In this document: positions 2,593 through 13,628 of the stretch, in pieces
How the letters are laid out: each line of letters opens with the position of its first letter
Numbering within the stretch: the stretch's first letter is position 1
Source of the DNA: Alphaproteobacteria bacterium
GTDB lineage: Bacteria; Pseudomonadota; Alphaproteobacteria; Sphingomonadales; Sphingomonadaceae
Length of the DNA stretch: 16,201 nucleotides
Direction: 5' to 3'
Assembly: GCA_028293055.1 (NCBI GenBank)
Contig: JAQGLD010000286.1
Location: forward strand, 1 to 16,201
Made by a program: the position numbers and the translations under genes
The notes under the pieces: generated by a model
The model's input: only the letters and a program-made list of their open reading frames with translations
What the model was told of the DNA's origin: nothing
The model's database searches: none

Positions 2593-5100
2593 TTACTCGT
2601 AACGAAGCGCGTGGATCGGATTGGCCCGCGCCACCCGAAGCGCATGGCTTGCGATGGTCCCGATCGCGATCACCAGCGCGAGTAGGCCGGCGAGCAGGAA
2701 CGGAGTCGGCCCGAGCGGGATCCGGGCATCGAAATGGTTGAGCCAGTCGCGCATCAGCCACCAGGCTATTGGCCAGGCGATCAGATTGGCGATCAGCACC
2801 GGTTTGGAGAATTGCCAGGCGAGCAGGCGGACGATGTCGCGCGAGCGGGCGCCGAGCACCTTGCGGATCCCGATCTCCTTGGTGCGCCGCTCCGCAGTGA
2901 ACGAAGCGAGGCCGAACAGGCCGAGGCAGCCGATCACCACCGCGAGCAGGGCGAACGCCGCGAACAGCTCGCCGCGCGCTGCCTCGCGATCGTAGAGCAC
3001 CCGGACCCGATCGTCGGCAAGCTCCGCCCGGAACGGAGAATCCGGGATCAGGCGCCGCCACGCCGCTTCGAGCCCCTGCATCACCGCCTTGGGCTCGCGC
3101 CCCTCGTAACGCACCATCAGCGCGTTGTGGAAATCGCGGGTGTAGAAGAACAGGATCGGCTGGAGCGGATCGCGGATCGAGCGGAAGCGGGCGTCGCGAA
3201 CGACTCCGACGATCGTCGCGCTCGCCTGGGTGTCGTCCGAGTTGAAGAAGCCGAGCTTGAGCGGCTTGCCGATCGCCTCGGCGGGCTGGCGGTAACCGAG
3301 CCGCTGGGCGGCCGCCTCGCTGATCACGACATTCAGCCCGCGCCGTGCCAGCGCCTGCTCGTCGGCCGGCTTGGTCGGGAAGGGCAGGGTCGCGTCGTCC
3401 AGCGCCGCCTGTTCAGAGAAGTTGCGGCCGGCGAGCATCTTCATCCCCATCGTCGGGAAGAAGTCCGGATCCACGCCGTAGAAGCCGAGGTCGACGCCCT
3501 TGGGATTGCCGGGCAGATAGACGGTCGAGACCGAATTGTTGCCGGGATTGACGCCGATTCCGGTCTTTGCGACCGAACGCACGCCATCGACCCGCCTGAA
3601 TTGCTGCTTGAGCGTCTCGATCGCCTCGGGGCCGCGGCCCGAGCTGGCATATTGGACTTCGATCAGCCCCTGGCGCTGATAGCCGGCGTCGGCGGTGCGA
3701 GCATAGACGGTCTGGCCGTAGATGATCGCAGTGCAGATGATCAGGCCGATCGACACCGCGAACTGGCCGACGACCAGGATGTTGCGAAGCCGGCCCGATC
3801 CCTGCGCCTCGGCCGACGACTTGTTGGCCTTGAGCACACGGGCGGGCTGGAACCGGGAGAGGTAGAAAGCGGGATAGACTCCGCCCGCAGCTCCGACGAT
3901 CAGCACCAGGGCGACGACCGGAAGCAGGACTCCTTCGCGGCCGAGATAGGACAGGACGATATCCGCGTCGAGGAAGCGGTTGAACGCGGCTAGCAGCAGC
4001 TCGACCGTGGCGAGCGCGACCAGCATCGCGATCGCGGTCACCAGCACCGATTCGCCGATGAACTGGACGATCAGCTGCTTCCGGCTCGCGCCGAGCACCT
4101 TCCTCAGCGCCACCTCGCGAGCCCGCTGGGAGGCGCGGGCGGTGGCGAGATTGGTGAAATTGACCACCGCCATGCCGAGGATCAGCAGTGCGATCACCGA
4201 AAAGGTGACGATCGTCCGGGCGTCGTTGCCGGGAGTCATCGACGCCTTTTGCGCGTGGCCGAGATGGATGTCGCGGACATTGACCAGCTTCCAGTCCTGT
4301 GAATCGCCAGGGTTGGAGCGCTCGGTGCCGCTATTCTCGTCGGGTATGTTGCGCTTCTCCCATGCGGGGAGCTGGCGGTTGATCTCTTCCGGATCGGCGC
4401 CGGGGCGGAGCTTGAGATAGACCCACCCGCCCTGATTGCCCCAGCCGGTGAGGAATCCCGGATTCTGGGCGTAATAAGTCTCGGGATCGTAGCGGGCGAC
4501 CATGCCGAGATCGAGTTCGCTGTTCTTGGGAAGATCGCGCATCACCCCGGTGACGGTGTAATCCGCGCTCTTGCCGTTGCTGACCAGGGTGATCGTCCTC
4601 CCCATCGCATTCTGGTTCGGGAAAAGCTTCGACGCCTCGGTCTCGGTCATCACCACCGAATACGGCCGGCTGAGCGCGGTCGGGCCGTCGCCATGGACGA
4701 ACGGCACGCGCAATATGTCGAACAGGTTGCCGTCGGCGAGAACGAACTTGTCGACCTGGCTCGGCTGGCCGTTCTGCAGCGCGACCGCCCCGCCCGAGCC
4801 GACATAGACCGAGCTCTCGATCTGCGGGAAATCCTTCACCAGAGCCTTGCGCGAGACATAGGAGGTCATCTGCAGCGGCATTTCCTCGCCGCCGGTCTTG
4901 CTCGGCATGTAATAATCCTGGAACTCGTAGGCGCGTTCGACGCCCGGCATCCAGCTGTCGTAGCTCTGCTCGTAGCGGACATAGAGCAGGATCATCAGAC
5001 AGGCGGCGAGGCCGAGCGCAAGCCCGAAGATGTTGATGAACGCATAGGTCTTGTTCTTGGTCAGCGCGCGCAGGCCGACAATTGCGTAGTTGCGCCACAT
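2593..5100 (-). CDS. ABC transporter permease, MacB/FtsX type (second paralogue)
   Basis: 835 residues, an internally duplicated FtsX-type permease. TM1 lies at about 18-42. A large MacB-like periplasmic domain follows (about 45-290), then TM2-4 (about 296-316, 348-370 and 391-412) and TM5 (440-462). A second periplasmic domain comes next (about 475-710), then three last TM segments (about 713-733, 766-783 and 800-818). The cytosolic coupling helices AREVALRKVLGAS (near 327-339) and TKEIGIRKVLGAR (near 738-750) are the family signature that contacts the ATPase. Such permeases move little substrate through the membrane; they transmit ATPase motion to periplasmic partners (MacB, Lol and Bce families). 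The ATG at 5100 follows AGGAAGG. It lies 13 bases after the stop of a close paralogue, so the two are probably a heterodimer. Confidence 0.92.
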   Translation of the reverse strand: MWRNYAIVGLRALTKNKTYAFINIFGLALGLAACLMILLYVRYEQSYDSWMPGVERAYEFQDYYMPSKTGGEEMPLQMTSYVSRKALVKDFPQIESSVYVGSGGAVALQNGQPSQVDKFVLADGNLFDILRVPFVHGDGPTALSRPYSVVMTETEASKLFPNQNAMGRTITLVSNGKSADYTVTGVMRDLPKNSELDLGMVARYDPETYYAQNPGFLTGWGNQGGWVYLKLRPGADPEEINRQLPAWEKRNIPDENSGTERSNPGDSQDWKLVNVRDIHLGHAQKASMTPGNDARTIVTFSVIALLILGMAVVNFTNLATARASQRAREVALRKVLGASRKQLIVQFIGESVLVTAIAMLVALATVELLLAAFNRFLDADIVLSYLGREGVLLPVVALVLIVGAAGGVYPAFYLSRFQPARVLKANKSSAEAQGSGRLRNILVVGQFAVSIGLIICTAIIYGQTVYARTADAGYQRQGLIEVQYASSGRGPEAIETLKQQFRRVDGVRSVAKTGIGVNPGNNSVSTVYLPGNPKGVDLGFYGVDPDFFPTMGMKMLAGRNFSEQAALDDATLPFPTKPADEQALARRGLNVVISEAAAQRLGYRQPAEAIGKPLKLGFFNSDDTQASATIVGVVRDARFRSIRDPLQPILFFYTRDFHNALMVRYEGREPKAVMQGLEAAWRRLIPDSPFRAELADDRVRVLYDREAARGELFAAFALLAVVIGCLGLFGLASFTAERRTKEIGIRKVLGARSRDIVRLLAWQFSKPVLIANLIAWPIAWWLMRDWLNHFDARIPLGPTPFLLAGLLALVIAIGTIASHALRVARANPIHALRYE

Positions 5101-5113
5101 GGGACGGACCTTC

Positions 5114-7612
5114 CTATTCGTAACGCAAAGCGTGGATTGGGTTGGAGCGGGCGATCCGGACCGCGTGACCGGCCACGGTCGCGACCGCGATCAACAGAGC
5201 GAGCGCGCCGGCGAGCAGGAACGGTGCCGGGCTCAGCGAGATCCTTGTATCGAATCCGTTGAGCCAGCCGCGCATCACCCACCAGGCGACCGGCCAGGCG
5301 ATCAGGTTCGCGACGATCACCGGCTTCGAGAATTGCCAGACGAGCAGCTGGACGATGTCGCGCACCCGGGCACCCAGCACCTTGCGTATGCCGATCTCCT
5401 TGGTCCGCCGTTCGGCGGTGAAGGCGGCGAGACCGAACAGGCCGAGGCAGCCGACGACCACCGAGAGGATCGCGAAGGCGGCGAAGGTCTTCGCCCGCGC
5501 ATCCTCGGCCGTGTACAGCTCGGAGATGATGTCCTCGCTGAACTTGGCGTTGAACGGAACTTCGTCGGTGAAGCCGCGCCAGACCTGCTCGACTCCGGCG
5601 CGGATCGCGGCCGGATCGCCATGGAAACGGATCATGAGCTGACCGAAGCCGTTGCGGCCGCCGACATACATGATCGGCTCGACCGGCACCTTGACCGAGC
5701 GGAAGCGCGAATCGCCGACGATTCCGACGATTGTCACCGGCACCAGCCCGTATTTCGATTCGACCAGCCCGACCCGAAGCGACTTGCCGAGCGCGTCGGC
5801 CGGATGGGCGAAGCCGAGCCGCCTGGCGGCAAGCGCATTGATCACGACATTGCCGCCGCGCAGGACCAGCGCCTTCTGCGCTTCCGGGGAAGCCGGAAAG
5901 GCCACAGTGAGGTCGTCGAGCGGGCGTTTCTCGTCGAACCAGCGGCCTGCGATCGACTTCAGCCCCATCGTTTCCATGAAGCCGTGATCGACATTGTAAT
6001 TGCCGATGATGACCGGAGTCGTGCTGCCCGGCGTCAGGATCCCGGTGTTGTTCTGATTCTCGGTGGCAATCCCGATGCTGGTCAGCCCGACCGAATCCAC
6101 GCCCGGAACGCGCCGCACCCGGTCGGCAATGGCCGGTCCCTTGTCGAGCAGCTGGTAGCGGTCGAGTTCGCGGACCTGGAGGAGATGGTCGCGCTTGAAC
6201 CCCGGATCGACGGTACGGGCATAGACGGTCTGGCCGTAGATGATTGCGGTGCAGATGATCAAAGCGATCGACACTGCGAACTGGCCGACGACGAGGACCG
6301 AGCGCAGCCGCCCGGAGCCCGGGGTCTCCGACGAGGACTTGTTCGCCTTGAGCACCTGGGCCGGCTGGAATCGCGACAGGAAGAAGGCAGGATAGAGGCC
6401 GCCGAGGACTCCGACGACCAGGACGAGCAAGACGACCGGGCCCGCAATCCCGCCGGCTCCGAAATAGCTCAGCTTCAGGTCGGCCTCGAGAAAGCGCGCG
6501 AAGGACGGCAGCAGCAGTTCGACCAGCGCCAGTGCGATCAGCATCGCCACCACTGCGACGATCACCGATTCGCCGATGAACTGGGCGATGAGCTGGCGGC
6601 GATTGGCGCCGAGCACCTTGCGCAACGCGACCTCGCGCGCCCGCTGGCTGGCGCGGGCGGTGGCGAGGTTGGTGAAATTGACCACCGCCATGCCGAGGAT
6701 CAGCACCGCGATCACGGCGAAGGTGACGATCGTGGTGCGATCGTTGCCCGGCGTCATCGCCGCCTGCTGGGCCCGGCCGAGATGGACGTCGGCGATGTTG
6801 ACGAGGTGCCAGTCCTGGTCGTCGCCGGCATTGAAATGGGCCTCGTCGCTATTCTCGTCGGGAATGTTGCGCTTCTCCCAGGCGGGGAGGCCGGCCTCGA
6901 TCGCCTTCGGATCGGCACCCGGCCGCAGCTTCGCATAGACCCAGCCGCCCTGGCAGCCCCAGCAGGTGAGGAACTGCGATTCCTTGGCCATGAAGCTCGG
7001 GAAATCGATGCGGATCAGGGTCGCGATCCGGAGGTGCGAGTTCTTCGGCAGGTCCTTGAGGATTCCGCCGATCTTGAAGTCGAACTTCTGGCCCTTGCTG
7101 ATCAGGGTGAAGGTGCGGCCGACGGCATTGGCCGTGCCGAACCGCCTGATCGCCTCGCTCTCGCTCATCAAAGCGGTGCCGACATGATCGAGCGCGGAGC
7201 GGCTGCCGGCGACCAGCGGCAGATCGACCACGTCGAGGAAATTGCCGTTCACATATTTATAGTCCTTGGTCGCGCTGGCCTCGCCGTCGTGGAAGAAGAC
7301 CGGATCGGTCGACAAGGCGTAGACGGTGCGCTCGACCTGGGGGAAGTCCTTGGCGAGCGTCGGGCCGCTGACGTAATTGCTCATCTGCCCCTGGGCTTCC
7401 TCGCCGGTCTGGCGGGAATGGAACCAGGTCTGCAGCTGATAGGCATTCTGCCAGCCGGGTACCCATTTGTCGTAGCTCATCTCGTAGCGCACGAAGAGCA
7501 GGATCATCAGGCAGGCGGCCATGCCGATCGCGAGGCCGAATATGTTGATGAACGCGTAAGTGCGGTTCTTGAGCAGGGCTCGAATGCCGACGGTCAGATA
7601 GTTGCGCAGCAT
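5114..7612 (-). CDS. ABC transporter permease, MacB/FtsX type (first paralogue)
   Basis: 832 residues, with the same architecture as the gene at 2593-5100: one N-terminal TM (about 18-42), a MacB-like periplasmic domain, FtsX core TMs with AREVALRKVLGAN, TM5 after LKANKSSSETPGSGRLRSVLV, a second periplasmic domain, and the final FtsX core with TKEIGIRKVLGAR, ending in NPIHALRYE. I chose ATG 7612 over the in-frame ATG at 7630 because AGGAG lies seven bases upstream and MLRNYLTVGIRALLKNR aligns with MWRNYAIVGLRALTKNK of the paralogue. The periplasmic parts differ more than the membrane parts, suggesting a tandem duplication followed by specialisation. It presumably pairs with the downstream permease on the ATPase encoded at 7751-8431. 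Confidence 0.92.
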   Translation of the reverse strand: MLRNYLTVGIRALLKNRTYAFINIFGLAIGMAACLMILLFVRYEMSYDKWVPGWQNAYQLQTWFHSRQTGEEAQGQMSNYVSGPTLAKDFPQVERTVYALSTDPVFFHDGEASATKDYKYVNGNFLDVVDLPLVAGSRSALDHVGTALMSESEAIRRFGTANAVGRTFTLISKGQKFDFKIGGILKDLPKNSHLRIATLIRIDFPSFMAKESQFLTCWGCQGGWVYAKLRPGADPKAIEAGLPAWEKRNIPDENSDEAHFNAGDDQDWHLVNIADVHLGRAQQAAMTPGNDRTTIVTFAVIAVLILGMAVVNFTNLATARASQRAREVALRKVLGANRRQLIAQFIGESVIVAVVAMLIALALVELLLPSFARFLEADLKLSYFGAGGIAGPVVLLVLVVGVLGGLYPAFFLSRFQPAQVLKANKSSSETPGSGRLRSVLVVGQFAVSIALIICTAIIYGQTVYARTVDPGFKRDHLLQVRELDRYQLLDKGPAIADRVRRVPGVDSVGLTSIGIATENQNNTGILTPGSTTPVIIGNYNVDHGFMETMGLKSIAGRWFDEKRPLDDLTVAFPASPEAQKALVLRGGNVVINALAARRLGFAHPADALGKSLRVGLVESKYGLVPVTIVGIVGDSRFRSVKVPVEPIMYVGGRNGFGQLMIRFHGDPAAIRAGVEQVWRGFTDEVPFNAKFSEDIISELYTAEDARAKTFAAFAILSVVVGCLGLFGLAAFTAERRTKEIGIRKVLGARVRDIVQLLVWQFSKPVIVANLIAWPVAWWVMRGWLNGFDTRISLSPAPFLLAGALALLIAVATVAGHAVRIARSNPIHALRYE

Positions 7613-7655
7613 GGCTTGGCTCCTATTCATCAGGCACGCGGGAACGCACTCTCAC

Positions 7656-7750: not shown

Positions 7751-8431
7751 TTACGCCGCTCGGCGGCGCTCGATCAGGATCCGGCCGTCGAGCATGTTGA
7801 CGACCCTGCCGGCATAATCGGCATGGGCGGGCGAATGGGTGACCATGATGATCGTCGACCCCTCATGGTTGAGCGCCTGCAGCATCTTCATCACTTCCTC
7901 GCCATGGGCGGTGTCGAGATTGCCGGTCGGCTCGTCGGCGAGGATCAGCTTGGGATTGCCGACCAGCGCGCGGGCGACCGCGACTCGCTGCTGCTGGCCG
8001 CCCGAAAGCTGGCTCGGCCGGTGCTTTGCGCGGTGAGCGATCCCGACCTTGTCCATCACCGCCTCGACACGGGTGCGCCGGGTGGCCGCGGGCACGTCGT
8101 GATAGAGCAGAGCGAGCTCGATATTCTCGCGCACCGAAAGCTCGTCGACGAGATTGAAGCTCTGGAAGATGAAGCCGATATTCTGCTTGCGGACATTGGC
8201 GAGCTGCGCCTCGCCAAGGCCGGCGACCTCGCGCCCGTCGAACACGTACGAACCGCTGGTCGGGCTGTCGAGCATCCCGAGCACGTTGAGCAGGGTCGAC
8301 TTGCCGCAGCCCGAAGGCCCCATGATGGCGACGAATTCTCCGTCGGCAATCTCGAGATCGATGCTGTCGAGCGCGGTCGTCTCGACCGTATCGGTGCGAT
8401 AGACCCGGGACAGCTCACGCATGCTCAGCAT
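7751..8431 (-). CDS. ABC transporter ATP-binding protein, MacB/LolD-like
   Basis: 226 residues, the normal length for LolD/MacB-type ATPases. Walker [10 protein letters not shown] (about 39-47), Q-loop in [12 protein letters not shown] (about 90-101), signature LSGGQQQR (about 142-149), Walker B LILADEP (about 161-167) with the TGNLD D-loop, and the H-loop in MVTHS are all intact, so it should hydrolyse ATP. It would energise the two FtsX-type permeases encoded downstream. The ATG at 8431 has AGGGAG six bases upstream; a second in-frame ATG at 8422 is less well placed. It follows the adaptor gene by 27 bases, consistent with one operon. Confidence 0.95.
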
Positions 8432-8458: not shown

Positions 8459-9763
8459 TCATCGGTCGAGGTCGAGCCGATCCTTGTCGGCGAAACCCGT
8501 ATAAGGCGAAGTGATCACCCGCTCGCCCGGCTGGAGGCCGTCGAGCACTTCGATCTGGTCGGCATTGCGGCGGCCGAGTCGGACCTGGCGCTTGATCGCG
8601 CTCTTGCCGTTGTCGGCGACGACGAAGACGAAGGCGCCGCCAGTGTCGTTGTAGAAGGCGCCGTTCGGGATCAGCAGGGCCGGAGTCGGATCGCCGAGGG
8701 TGAGCCGCGCCTGCAGCGTCTGGCCGCGCTGGACATCGGCGGGCTCGCCGCCGAGGAACCAGAGGTCGACCTGGAAGGTGCCGTTGCGGACCTGCGGATA
8801 GATTTTGGCGACCTTCATCCGGAAGCTCTTGCCGGCATAATCGATCATTGCGATCTGGCCCGGCTGGACCCGGCCGAGATAGAATTCATCGACATCGGCG
8901 GTCAGCTTGTTGCGGCCGTTGCTGTCGATCTGGCCGAGCCGCTCGCCGCGACTGAGCGACTGGCCGATCTGGATCGAGAAAGCGGTGAGCTGGCCGTCGA
9001 CCGGAGCGCGCAGGTTGAGCGCGTCGAGGCTGCCATGAGCGATCGACAGGCTCTGGCCGAGTGCGGCGGTCGAGGCGCGGAGCTGGCCGAGCTGGCTCGA
9101 CTGGAGCTTCTCGTCGGTCGCCTGCGCCTGGCGCATGACCTCGCTCCGCCGGCGGTTGGCGAGATATTCGTCCTGGCTGTCGCGGAAGGTGCGGCCGGCG
9201 ATGAAGCCTTTCGCTGCAAGCGGCTTCTGGACCTCGAACTGACGGCGGGCCTTGTCTGCAGCGAGATCGGCCTCGATCACCGCCTTATGGTCCTGGGCTC
9301 TGGTCTGGGCGAGCGCGAGCTCGAGGCTGCGCATCGAATTGACCTCGCGCGAAACCTCGGTCTGGCGGGCGAGCACGTTGAGCTGAAGCTCGGCATTGGA
9401 GAGGATTGCGAGCAATTGCCCGCGCTTCACGATCGTGCCGTCCTCGACCATGACCTTCTCGACCCGGCCGCCCTCGATCGCGTCGAGATAGACGGTGAGC
9501 AGCGGGGTCACCCGGGCGCGCAACGGCAGGAAGTCGTCGAAACGCCCCTTCACCACCGTCGATATGGTCAGCCGGTCGGCGGCGATGCTCTGGCTGCTGC
9601 CGCGCGGGGCGAACCAGTAGAACAGGCCGGCGAGAATCAACAATGCAGCGACCGCAAGGGCGATCATGATTCGGGTCGAAATGCCGCGGCGTTCGACGAC
9701 TCGATCCATCGTTCCGCCACTATGGGCATTGGTGTCTGACGACTGCATCCTGACCACGCTCAT
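8459..9763 (-). CDS. Periplasmic adaptor (HlyD/MacA-like membrane fusion protein)
   Basis: 434 residues. One TM anchor lies near 32-52, after a polar N-terminus. A beta/lipoyl half-motif follows at about 93-121 (GGRVEKVMVEDGTIVKRGQLL), then a long coiled-coil hairpin (about 125-240), the returning lipoyl half (LNLRAPVDGQLTAFSIQIGQ), and beta-barrel and membrane-proximal parts ending in VLDGLQPGERVITSPYTGF. In MacA-like systems such proteins bridge the inner-membrane ABC transporter to an outer-membrane channel; no TolC-like gene is in this window. ATG 9763 is used, but its GGGGAG lies about 13 bases away. ATG 9709, just after GGCGGAACG, would start nearer the TM and is a real alternative. Confidence 0.9.
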   Translation of the reverse strand: MSVVRMQSSDTNAHSGGTMDRVVERRGISTRIMIALAVAALLILAGLFYWFAPRGSSQSIAADRLTISTVVKGRFDDFLPLRARVTPLLTVYLDAIEGGRVEKVMVEDGTIVKRGQLLAILSNAELQLNVLARQTEVSREVNSMRSLELALAQTRAQDHKAVIEADLAADKARRQFEVQKPLAAKGFIAGRTFRDSQDEYLANRRRSEVMRQAQATDEKLQSSQLGQLRASTAALGQSLSIAHGSLDALNLRAPVDGQLTAFSIQIGQSLSRGERLGQIDSNGRNKLTADVDEFYLGRVQPGQIAMIDYAGKSFRMKVAKIYPQVRNGTFQVDLWFLGGEPADVQRGQTLQARLTLGDPTPALLIPNGAFYNDTGGAFVFVVADNGKSAIKRQVRLGRRNADQIEVLDGLQPGERVITSPYTGFADKDRLDLDR

Positions 9764-9833: not shown

Positions 9834-9870
9834 TGTCCGATTCCGGACAGATTCTGTTCGACTACGGACA
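9834..9870. promoter_or_regulatory. Pair of TGTYCG-N4-CGGACA dyads (sites 1 and 2)
   Basis: Site 1 is TGTCCG-ATTC-CGGACA at 9834-9849. Site 2 is TGTTCG-ACTA-CGGACA at 9855-9870. Their centres are 21 bases apart, two helical turns, as in NtrC-type enhancer pairs. They lie between the small peptide gene and the adaptor gene, roughly 390-410 bases upstream of the regulator's predicted start and downstream of the operon's predicted sigma-54 promoter. They share the half-site with three more copies at 10190-10259. Binding by the adjacent response regulator is inferred. Confidence 0.6.
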
Positions 9871-9873
9871 GCA

Positions 9874-10065
9874 TCACAACGGAATGATCGAGCAGGCGCG
9901 AAGCGTGGTCGCCACGCTCCCCATGCACGCCGAGGCGATGACGGTGCCCGCCTCGGCGCGGCCGCCGTCGACCGGGGCCAGCGCCGCCATCGGAAGGAGG
10001 ATCGCAGCTGCGATCCACAAGGCGGCGGTGAAGCCGGATTCAAACTTGCTGGTCCATTTCGTCAT
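9874..10065 (-). CDS. Small hydrophobic peptide, first gene of the export operon
   Basis: 63 residues. MTKWTSKFESG is followed by a hydrophobic segment (about 12-31) and a short tail with small residues and two cysteines (C47 and C58), ending in RACSIIPL. It could be a one-TM membrane peptide or a secreted peptide with an AEA-type signal cleavage site near residue 39. I do not recognise the family. Support for a real gene: ATG 10065 has GGGAGGG at ideal spacing, a near-consensus sigma-54 promoter lies about 55-70 bases upstream on the same strand, and the frame closes just before the regulatory dyads. The adaptor gene follows 110 bases later. It may be a cargo, regulator or accessory subunit of the exporter; this is speculation. 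Confidence 0.6.
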   Translation of the reverse strand: MTKWTSKFESGFTAALWIAAAILLPMAALAPVDGGRAEAGTVIASACMGSVATTLRACSIIPL

Positions 10066-10118
10066 GTTCGTCCCTCCCGGACTGGCAACCCAGTGGCAAT
10101 CGTCTGTGCCCATTGTTC

Positions 10119-10135
10119 AGCAGGAGCCGTGCCAA
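10119..10135 (-). promoter_or_regulatory. Sigma-54 promoter (-24/-12) for the export operon
   Basis: On the minus strand the sequence is TTGGCACG-GCTC-CTGCT. The invariant GG and GC are exactly ten bases apart, and it matches YTGGCACG-N4-TTGCW at all but one position. Transcription would begin near 10108, giving a leader of about 43 bases before the small peptide ATG at 10065. Three dyads lie at about -90, -110 and -143, a normal enhancer distance for sigma-54 activators. Confidence 0.75.
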
Positions 10136-10189
10136 GTCGGAAAAAGTCCGGAATTCCGCCGAATCCGTGCTTCGTCGGCTCAAACAGGC

Positions 10190-10225
10190 TGTTCGCAGTC
10201 GGACTCTTGTGTCCGCAGGCGGACG
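10190..10225. promoter_or_regulatory. Pair of TGTYCG-N4-CGGAC dyads (sites 3 and 4)
   Basis: Site 3 is TGTTCG-CAGT-CGGACT at 10190-10205. Site 4 is TGTCCG-CAGG-CGGACG at 10210-10225. Their centres are 20 bases apart. They lie between the two divergent sigma-54 promoters, at enhancer distance from the operon promoter but only a few bases from the -24 element of the regulator promoter. They are likely binding sites of the regulator encoded at 10278-11678. Confidence 0.65.
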
Positions 10226-10227
10226 GC

Positions 10228-10243
10228 TGGCACGGAATTTGAT
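10228..10243 (+). promoter_or_regulatory. Sigma-54 promoter (-24/-12) for the response regulator genes
   Basis: CTGGCACG-GAAT-TTGAT: the -24 box is perfect from 10228, and the spacing to the -12 box is exact. The -12 dinucleotide is GA instead of GC, which may weaken it. The start would fall near 10253, about 25 bases before the GTG at 10278, with AGGAG in between. Dyads sit immediately upstream and over the start, suggesting autoregulation. Confidence 0.6.
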
Positions 10244-10259
10244 TGTCCGATTTCGAACA
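10244..10259. promoter_or_regulatory. TGTCCG-N4-CGAACA dyad over the regulator start site (site 5)
   Basis: TGTCCG-ATTT-CGAACA is a full six-base dyad except for one wobble-type change. It directly abuts the -12 element of the plus-strand sigma-54 promoter and covers the predicted start point. A protein bound here would be expected to block that promoter, giving negative feedback. It is also the most distant of the three sites upstream of the operon promoter. Confidence 0.55.
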
Positions 10260-10277: not shown

Positions 10278-11667
<1,390 letters not shown>

Positions 11668-11678
<11 letters not shown>

Positions 11679-13005
11679 GGCACGCTTCGTCGCCGGGCTT
11701 GCGCTCCGCGTCCTGCTGCTGCTCGCGGCGTCCTTCGTCCTGTTCGAGACGTTGCGGCGGCCCGGCTTCGGCGCGGCGCGAATTCTTGCGGCATGCCTTG
11801 CGGCCTGGGCGCTCGCCGAGCTGTGGCGCTATATCCAGCGCACCAACCGCGAGCTCGCCCGCTTCCTCGAAGCGCTTCGGCTCGGCGACCTTTCGCAAAG
11901 CTTCTCGCACCGCGCCGCCGGCAGCGGGTTCGCGGAGGTCGGCGAAGCGCTCGATCTCGGCATCCGCCGGCTGCGCGAGGAGAGGCAGAAGCTCAACGAT
12001 GCCAGCCGATTCTTCGAGGCGGTGCTCGACGACGCTCCGACGCCTTTGCTCACTGTCGACGATCAGGGCCGGGTCGAGCTCGCCAACAAGGCGGCCCGAC
12101 GGCTGTTCGTCCGCCACCAGGGCGTCCGGGTCGAGGATTTCCGGGATTATGGCGACGCCTTCGCCAAAGCTCTTGCCGATCAGGCGATCGGCCAGCCCAA
12201 GCTGGTTCCGCTCATGCTCGACGGAGTGCCGCAGACCGCGATGCTCACTGCCGCCGCGGTGCAACGGCTCGGCGGCTTCGTCCGGGTGGTTGCTGTCCAG
12301 CCGATCCAGGGCGAGCTCAATGCGGTCGAGATCGCAGCGCAGAGCGACCTCGTGCGGGTGCTGACCCACGAGATCATGAACTCGATGACTCCGGTCACCT
12401 CGCTTGCCCACAGCGCTGCCAGCCTGATGGCAGAGGCCGATCGCGGTGACGATGCGGCGGTGAGCGACGCGCGCGCGGCGGTCGAAACTCTCGCCCGGCG
12501 CGCCGACGGAGTGATGGGTTTCGTCGAATCCTATCGCCAGATCAGCCGCACCCCGGAAGTCCGCCGCCGGCTGTTCGAAGCCTCGCCCTGGGCGCGCGAG
12601 CTCGAATCCCTGTTCCGGGCGAGCGGCGCTTCTCAAGGGGTCGATTTCACTCTGGCGATCGCGCCGGTCACGCTTGCGCTCGACATCGATCCGGACCTGA
12701 TGTGCCAGGTGCTGCTCAACCTGCTCAAGAACGGGGCCGAGGCGGCACGCGAACAGCCTTCGCCGGCCGTCTGGCTGAGCTTCAAGGGACTGGCTCGCGG
12801 CCGCGTCCAGATCGATGTCGCCGACAATGGCGCCGGAGTGCCCGAGGGGCTGCGGCAGGACGTGTTCCTGCCTTTCTTCACCACCAAGGCGAAGGGTTCG
12901 GGAGTCGGGCTAAGCCTTGCCCGCCAGGTCGTGCTTTCCCACGGCGGATCGATCGCGATCAGCGACCGCGACGGCGGGGGCGCCTTGTTCCGGATCGTCC
13001 TCTGA
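11668..13005 (+). CDS. Membrane sensor histidine kinase
   Basis: 445 residues from ATG 11668, which overlaps the regulator's last codons; upstream in-frame starts lie deep inside that gene. Two adjacent TM helices (about 10-28 and 36-54) have almost no periplasmic loop, so a signal in the membrane or cytosol is likely. Next come a helical linker, a PAS-like domain (about 112-215), the H-box with H234 in VLTHEIMNSMTPV, and the ATPase domain with N-box NLLKNGAEA (351-359), DNGAGVP (386-392) and PFFTTKAKGSGVGLSLA (402-418). All catalytic motifs are intact, resembling NtrY-type kinases. It presumably phosphorylates D58 of the regulator encoded upstream. Its last 96 bases are antisense to the end of the rrf2-type gene. 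Confidence 0.93.
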
Positions 13006-13446
13006 CTGGAGGTGCTGGACCGGCTCGACCGATTCGATCGGTATCGGATCGGCGAGGCTGATCGCGTCGAGGATCCGAGCGGTCTCGTCGCGGACCATCA
13101 GCATCGCCCGGTGGAGCCGGCACTGGTCGAGCGTCACGCAATTCTTGCACTGCTCGTAGGCGAGCCGGCTGGCGCAGGGCAGCAGCGCCAGCGAGCCTCG
13201 GGTGAGGCGGACGATCTCGCCATAGCTGATCTCCTCCGGAGCGCGGGCGAGCCAGTAGCCGCCCTCGCGTCCGCGTCGCGACGCGATCAGCCCGTCGCGG
13301 ATCATCTGCGAAAGCATCACGGTGAGGAATTTGGGCGGGATGTTCTGAGCGTCGGCAATCTCGCTCATCTGCACCGCCCCTTCGCCGTACCGGTCCGCCA
13401 GATGGAGCAGCGCACGGATTGTGTAGCGAGTACGTTGAGAAAGCAT
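12910..13446 (-). CDS. Rrf2-family transcriptional regulator with cysteine cluster motif
   Basis: 178 residues from ATG 13446; an in-frame TTG at 13467 would add seven residues, but the family usually begins MLSQRTRY-like. The winged helix lies at about 1-80, with recognition region IPPKFLTVMLSQMIRDGLI and wing RRGREGGYWLA. Cysteines C91, C100, C103 and C109 occupy the region where IscR, NsrR and RirA hold an Fe-S cluster, so it may sense Fe-S, redox or nitric oxide status. Residues from about 147 to the end are antisense to the kinase gene and look like a non-conserved tail. It lies downstream of the exporter gene on the same strand; the 182-base gap shows no clear terminator or operator. 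Probable target: the dyad at 14678-14694. Confidence 0.87.
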   Translation of the reverse strand: MLSQRTRYTIRALLHLADRYGEGAVQMSEIADAQNIPPKFLTVMLSQMIRDGLIASRRGREGGYWLARAPEEISYGEIVRLTRGSLALLPCASRLAYEQCKNCVTLDQCRLHRAMLMVRDETARILDAISLADPIPIESVEPVQHLQSEDDPEQGAPAVAVADRDRSAVGKHDLAGKA

Positions 13447-13628
13447 TGGGCGCTCATGGACCTTCAAATCGGCGTTTTCAACAATAGGACGGAGTCGCGC
13501 GCCCGCTCCCGCATGGCACCAGCGACCGTCTCCGGCGATAGGTGGGAGAGGATGGTAGCGGCCGGAACTTTCGCAGGGTCAGCAAGCAGGCGCTCGGCTT
13601 ACCGCGTCGGCCGCCGCCTCCCAGGGGA

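Follow-up and report, generated by a model that had tools for sequence, protein, structure and literature searches.

Five copies of a 16-bp dyad, TGTYCG-N4-CGRACA, lie between a regulator gene and the divergently oriented exporter genes in the 16,201-nucleotide stretch of DNA analysed here (the window), and they raise the question of which protein uses these sites and what they control. The sequence check found all five 16-mers at the predicted coordinates. Dyads 1 (9834-9849) and 2 (9855-9870) form a distal pair and are exact, whereas dyads 3 (10190-10205) and 4 (10210-10225), the proximal pair, each carry one mismatch; dyad 5 (10244-10259), again exact, adjoins a promoter-like element of the regulator gene and spans its expected start point. 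No strand is assigned to any of them. The centre-to-centre spacings of 21 bp between dyads 1 and 2 and of 20 bp between dyads 3 and 4 are correct as first given. The original prediction slightly overstated the likeness of the half-sites, which are identical in dyads 1, 2, and 5; the sites at 10190 and 10210 end in T and G, respectively, instead of A. Similarly, its statement that the window holds no further copy stands for exact copies, but one-mismatch copies are found at 10942 and 11089, within the regulator coding sequence, where they probably arose by chance. At up to two mismatches, the window contained nine dyad matches, whereas 200 shuffles gave 2.69 on average and never more than 8. 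The assembly of the window's own genome (3.6 Mb, 82% complete) holds exact dyads at eight places, three of them in this control region, and the reversed control gave none. Single dyads sought with one mismatch and a looser pattern occurred at 107 places versus 76 for the control; such a scan is uninformative, and pairs are needed.

To the right of the dyads, a gene with a GTG start encodes an NtrC-type response regulator (10278-11678, forward strand), the proposed dyad binder, whose receiver, sigma-54 activator AAA+, and Fis-type HTH domains (PF00072, PF00158, PF02954) all score over the Pfam cut-offs. It is followed on the same strand by a histidine kinase gene (11668-13005; PAS and HATPase domains, PF13188 and PF02518), the product of which has two close membrane segments joined by a short loop. 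The same arrangement was seen in 73 of 78 related kinases, where 14 residues or fewer separate the N-terminal membrane segments from each other, the segment windows overlapping in 17 of the 73; in the other five, two membrane segments were not called. Because the segments are so close, the kinase seems to have no outside sensor domain. The end of the kinase gene is also covered, on the reverse strand, by part of an ORF (12910-13467) for an Rrf2-type regulator (PF02082).

The leftward genes, all on the reverse strand, encode an HlyD/MacA-type periplasmic adaptor (8459-9763; PF16576 and PF13437, with TIGR01730 over its cut-off), an ABC transporter ATPase (7751-8431; PF00005), and two MacB_PCD/FtsX permeases (5114-7630 and 2593-5100; PF02687 and PF12704 in both). 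They are preceded by a predicted hydrophobic small ORF of 63 amino acids (9874-10065, reverse strand), located between the distal pair and a leftward promoter-like sequence, PL1. Visual inspection of all 22 same-genus loci (the congener loci being L108-L132) showed a small hydrophobic ORF after PL1 in each; many of these ORFs have an ALEPV-like core, and others are 27-30 amino acids long. The small ORF matched no Pfam or NCBIfam family, and a homologue search returned only the ORF itself, the query being too short to say much. Differences by codon position (0.487, 0.366, and 0.55 at positions 1, 2, and 3) give a weak signal, from a set that contains one wrong sequence, L128. That the ORF encodes an accessory of the pump or the kinase is a guess.

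The dyads are conserved at related loci. A scan of named genomes provided relatives of the regulator, of which the best 80 of at least 575 confirmed were analysed; many of the records are metagenome bins, so the phylum labels may err. A kinase gene lies directly downstream of the regulator gene in 78 of these 80, and 59 have a divergent exporter-type gene within 1.5 kb upstream; the remaining 21 show no such gene in 1.5 kb, some for want of sequence. In the approximately 700 bases upstream of the relatives, the strict dyad with at most one mismatch was counted 56 times, compared to 0-2 times for six control patterns. A count that is free of the motif gave the same gap: TGT-N10-ACA occurred 78 times in 450 bases upstream, and the other 20 gaps 6-33 times, the 33 matches at gap N11 including Bacteroidales variants such as TGTTCGATTACGAAACA. 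With a leave-one-out matrix, applied to 79 relatives and the window (L051 was left out because it has no upstream DNA, and L020 has just about 260 bases), 62 of 80 loci scored above the 99th percentile of shuffles versus two with the mirrored matrix. The passing loci come, by record title, from Pseudomonadota, Bacteroidota, Acidobacteriota, Ignavibacteria, Balneola, Neomarinimicrobiota, and Aminicenantes, that is, from six or more phyla as labelled. Loci with a divergent exporter passed more often (50/59) than the other relatives (11/20). The 80-locus matrix generalises the half-site to TGT-[CTA]-C-[GA]. Spacings of 20, 21, and 22 bp between sites were found in 12, 21, and 15 cases, the next commonest being 10 bp with six cases; the two-turn spacing is thus conserved along with the motif, other phyla included. 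Operators generally drift, which makes one that is recognisable across phyla unusual, and the conservation of this putative operator is, on the sequences compared, unusually broad.

The region had been predicted to be a divergent sigma-54 control region, and sigma-54-like promoters are indeed found on both sides. All promoter calls are consensus matches, made with a matrix of the usual consensus with our own weights and cut-offs. The leftward promoter PL1 (TGGCACGGCTCCTGCT, 10119-10134, reverse strand) is predicted as a near-consensus match, and rpoN is encoded in the own genome. The rightward sigma-54-like element (TGGCACGGAATTTGAT, 10228-10243, forward strand) has A in place of C at -12. An element of the form TGGCA[CT]G-N4-[TC]TG is present in 26 of 34 loci (22 same-genus loci and 12 from outside the genus), and the base that follows it, at -12, is T in 13, A in 13, and C in none of the 26; a related element outside this definition, CGGCACGAACTTTGCA in L021, does carry C. 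Alterations of the -12 make sigma-54 promoters weaker or looser. The absence of the canonical C from all 26 loci therefore suggests an autoregulated weak promoter.

Dyad 5 had been proposed to cover the start site of the regulator gene, and it overlaps the start point expected for the rightward element. In 14 of the 26 loci, counting from the first base of the element, a dyad with at most two mismatches starts at offset 16 exactly; over the range -5 to 60, just five dyads start elsewhere, and 12 of the 26 loci have no dyad at offset 16. This offset was first noticed in the window, L009, L010, L013, and L014, four of which are among the 14 counted, and L123 is a twin of L009 in this count. The recurrence of the 16-base offset means that site 5 lies at a constant distance from the element, over the point where transcription would be expected to start, and autorepression of the regulator's own weak promoter is the most likely role for it as judged from this arrangement.

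Among close relatives, we compared 22 loci of the same genus, the window included; L127, which has no anchor, was left out of the count. The genus includes Sphingosinicella sp. LHD-64 (L009), the printed control sequence of which is identical to that of the congener L123. The distal pair, PL1, and the rightward element are kept in all 22 loci and the proximal pair in 17, being absent from L123, L124, L126, L128, and L132. Nine of the 22, not including the window, have a second leftward promoter beside the distal pair. Each pair thus looks like an enhancer-plus-promoter module of its own.

A search for the dyad in the rest of the genome revealed paired dyads, most clearly upstream of pcm-tolC, and these targets in trans add to the picture originally drawn. 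Eight own-genome regions around further dyads, among the places listed, were considered and three were kept. Upstream of pcm-tolC (L103; PF01135, PF02321) there is a dyad pair with spacing 20 and a strong sigma-54-like promoter. A gene for a TonB-receptor-like protein, with PF00593 and PF07715 barely over cut-off (L101), is likewise preceded by a pair, with spacing 22, and a strong sigma-54-like promoter. The third, weaker case is a 37-aa ORF followed by pspC (PF04024; L097), with a single one-mismatch dyad. C18, C47, C272, C446, and C599 were dropped as targets, having no sigma-54-like site at a score of at least 18.5.

A regulator match at E <= 1e-100 was obtained in 86 of 197 relatives; within the genus, 23 of the 26 genomes, the own genome included, have one. 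For pcm, matches were obtained in 56 of 60 genomes, and the best 30 of these were analysed. Two dyads 18-23 bp apart are present at pcm in 20 of the 23 regulator-positive congeners (L139, with 18 bp, is the odd one), and 19 of these 20 loci also have a sigma-54-like site scoring at least 19. Three genomes (G002, G017, and G021) have the regulator, yet neither a dyad pair nor a sigma-54-like site at pcm. The pcm loci of the regulator-negative G008 and G020 have neither pair nor promoter (0 of 2 readable loci, G023 being truncated there), and no dyad pair was seen at four pcm loci of other genera, one of them regulator-positive. Since the pcm-tolC pairs follow the presence of the regulator, the exporter appears to share a regulon with TolC, whose gene is unlinked.

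We also scanned the 26 congeneric genomes for pairs at spacings 20 and 21 with at most two mismatches of 24. Pairs occurred at 26 places with spacing 21 and at 27 with spacing 20, and at none in the reversed controls. At least one pair was found in 22 of the 23 regulator-positive congeners, G011 having none at these spacings, and in none of the three regulator-negative ones (G008, G020, and G023, the last 81% complete); same-genus genomes are related, so these are not independent events. Many of the pairs belong to pcm or to the control region of the regulator itself. Eleven others were examined, among which L207 has no promoter at a score of at least 18.5, L201 has the weakest (18.7), and L209 scores 19.2. 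In G022, the regulator-adaptor module is present a second time (L203, C29), likewise with a dyad pair of its own and with sigma-54-like promoters.

Among 30 pspC-like loci, a sigma-54-like promoter was detected in 19 (from 19 genomes); 14 of these also have a dyad with at most one mismatch, including that of the regulator-negative G023, and five have none. The pspC operon of G022 (L210) carries a true dyad pair. The small-ORF-pspC operon is therefore, on this pattern, likely a regulon member, with a weaker case than pcm-tolC. In many congeners the ORF that precedes pspC under the sigma-54-like promoter has 35-37 amino acids and an SAA[VI]GP-like end (L097:2205-2551, L211-L238).

Taken with the location of the sites, these comparisons indicate that the dyads are very probably the sites of the adjacent NtrC-type regulator and would drive the sigma-54 promoters of the exporter and pcm-tolC. 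The regulator might instead bind the dyads mainly as a repressor or architectural protein and not activate sigma-54 polymerase. Site 5 over a start point would fit such a role, as would site 4, which adjoins the -24 element of the rightward promoter. The sigma-54 contact loop of the regulator also fits, since it reads GAFTDA, not GAFTGA; among 81 related proteins scanned, GAFTDA was found in 60, GSFTDA in 16, and GAFTGA in three, with two unassigned. However, a sigma-54-like site within 170 bp and pointing away from the pair accompanies 36 of 49 distinct pairs but just 79 of 880 positions picked at random in these loci (13 pairs have no such site nearby), and GAFTDA is among the variants considered still active in Desulfovibrio, as described in PMC4641369. 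A mainly repressive or architectural role is thus improbable.

Alternatively, another DNA-binding protein could use the dyads and the adjacent regulator could bind elsewhere. The regulator is assigned by association, and the own genome encodes six proteins with a match to the sigma-54 activator family, of which the adjacent one and three others are strong matches. Moreover, G023, in which no regulator was found (81% complete), has a one-mismatch dyad at its pspC operon. Against this, over the 80 loci the dyad tracks the type of recognition helix that this particular regulator has: it is present at 60 of 69 loci with a helix of the form [TS]R[ASTG][SAT][LV]YRR[MLI][ED]K and at two of 11 with other helices (Fisher p = 9e-6, a value that ignores relatedness, for a helix class set after seeing the data). 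This association ties the dyad to the adjacent regulator and not to another binder, although nine of the 18 loci that fail the matrix test have the usual helix. Paired dyads are also absent from G008, G020, and G023, which have no regulator match at E <= 1e-100. We consider a different binder very improbable, and the helix association and the co-occurrence with the regulator favour the adjacent NtrC-type protein, originally named as the natural binder, as the putative one. Relatives with an altered helix and without the dyad (L042, L057, L059, L072, L077, L079, and L081-L083) possibly represent a protein-DNA specificity series, and several altered-helix relatives show other TGT-N11-ACA repeats.

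Very improbable, too, is a role of sites 1 and 2 at the RNA level, in which they would fold into hairpins in the stretch that separates the small ORF from the adaptor gene and serve, for example, as an attenuator or processing site: each dyad could make a stem of 6 bp closed by a 4-base loop, and the distal pair comes directly after the stop codon of the small ORF, but its motif and 20-22-bp spacing are the same as in pairs upstream of promoters, a sigma-54 promoter lies just beyond it in the nine congeners mentioned above, and no T-run follows it on the leftward strand.

With the dyads read as activating sites of the adjacent regulator, the kinase would phosphorylate the regulator, which would then bind at the pairs and assemble into oligomers that act on sigma-54 RNA polymerase, remodelling it at promoters lying mostly 40-75 bp beyond the pair. 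Sites 3 and 4 would activate PL1, ahead of the small membrane ORF and the genes for the adaptor, ATPase, and two FtsX permeases of the ABC exporter. Sites 1 and 2 would be the enhancer of the second leftward promoter, kept in some congeners and lost in the window, where they may either act at a distance or be relics. In trans, the regulator would act on pcm-tolC, and probably also on the small-ORF-pspC operon, so that production of the pump in the inner membrane would be coupled to that of the channel in the outer membrane. By covering the start of the regulator's weak promoter, site 5 would most likely limit regulator synthesis. The motif, its spacing, the promoter-like sequences, and the co-occurrence come directly from the comparison of loci; binding, phosphorylation, activation, and autorepression by the regulator are steps that we infer.

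The regulator falls below the NCBIfam equivalog cut-offs for NtrC, NtrX, AtoC, ZraR, GlrR, and PrsR, and on these cut-offs we rejected it as a PrsR, GlrR, NtrC, or ZraR equivalog; by sequence, ZraR is its nearest solved structure. Its best NCBIfam match is PrsR (TIGR02915; 336 bits, cut-off 502.6). In the PrsK-PrsR system (TIGR02916/TIGR02915), a motif, sometimes repeated, is described about 63 bp before the sigma-54 promoter (PMC1569441). The two systems share an NtrC-type regulator with a membrane kinase and the same site-promoter geometry. They are set apart by the description of motif 1 as 17 nucleotides ending in TTTACA, unlike TGTYCG-N4-CGRACA, and by that of the PrsR targets as PEP-CTERM genes (PMC1569441). 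GlrR (QseF) of enterobacteria, also a response-regulator enhancer-binding protein, is described as using TGTC(N)10GACA sites at the sRNA genes glmY and glmZ (PMC4987338). Its half-sites resemble ours, whereas TGTC and GACA are separated by N10 there and by N8 in the window's dyads, and the regulator scores 261 bits against the GlrR family (cut-off 763).

The exporter resembles the DarBCD and MacAB-TolC exporters in having MacB_PCD/FtsX permeases and a TolC-family partner. The adaptor (8459-9763) and the ATPase (7751-8431) have the darobactin-exporter proteins DarC and DarD as their best NCBIfam matches; every subunit lies below its equivalog cut-off (adaptor 188.8 of 450, ATPase 276.3 of 375, permeases 69.8 and 87.3 of 700), and identity with DarBCD was rejected. 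Unlike DarBCD, the window's exporter has two long permeases. A survey of 2025 predicted sigma-54 control of FtsX-type ABC permeases, a linkage also seen here; an operator, a palindrome, or a UAS is not mentioned in its main text (PMC12316311). Our literature search, largely without subscription journals, found no description of this dyad operator.

Bce-type peptide-sensing modules combine an OmpR-type regulator with an FtsX-type transporter beside a kinase that has hardly any outside loop. The window's locus likewise places an FtsX-type transporter beside a kinase without a periplasmic sensor domain. It differs in its NtrC-type regulator with sigma-54, its separate periplasmic adaptor, and TolC, and it is not a Bce-type member because the regulator is NtrC-type and not OmpR-type. 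If the kinase senses its exporter, the locus would correspond, with an NtrC-type regulator, to the peptide-sensing modules of Gram-positive bacteria. A wider reading, possible if somewhat doubtful, is that the dyad marks an ancient or widely transferred sigma-54 envelope-export regulon of Pseudomonadota, Bacteroidota, Acidobacteriota, and others. In such a regulon, the kinase would read the state of its own FtsX-type exporter, perhaps via the small membrane protein, and the GAFTDA regulator would turn on pump, TolC, and PspC together and limit itself through the promoter with the non-canonical -12.

The comparisons propose a putative operator for widespread regulator-kinase-exporter loci and link the pump to an unlinked TolC gene; a simple scan for the pair pattern should therefore predict partners and targets. 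In addition, the dyad that sits at a fixed position over an element whose -12 is consistently non-canonical offers a specific, testable model of sigma-54 autoregulation. A pair search at spacing 21 in 13 named genomes gave 16 places in 10 genomes versus one for the control. The extra pairs of Ekhidna (L241), Marivirga (L242, L251, and L255), and Adhaeribacter (L243) have no sigma-54-like site under the usual-consensus matrix; those at L255 and L243 lie near paralogues of the regulator. In Kordiimonas aquimaris, two further pairs with sigma-54-like promoters precede FtsX-type permeases (L252 and L256), and in Aliiglaciecola (L254) a pair with a sigma-54-like promoter precedes an HlyD-type adaptor.
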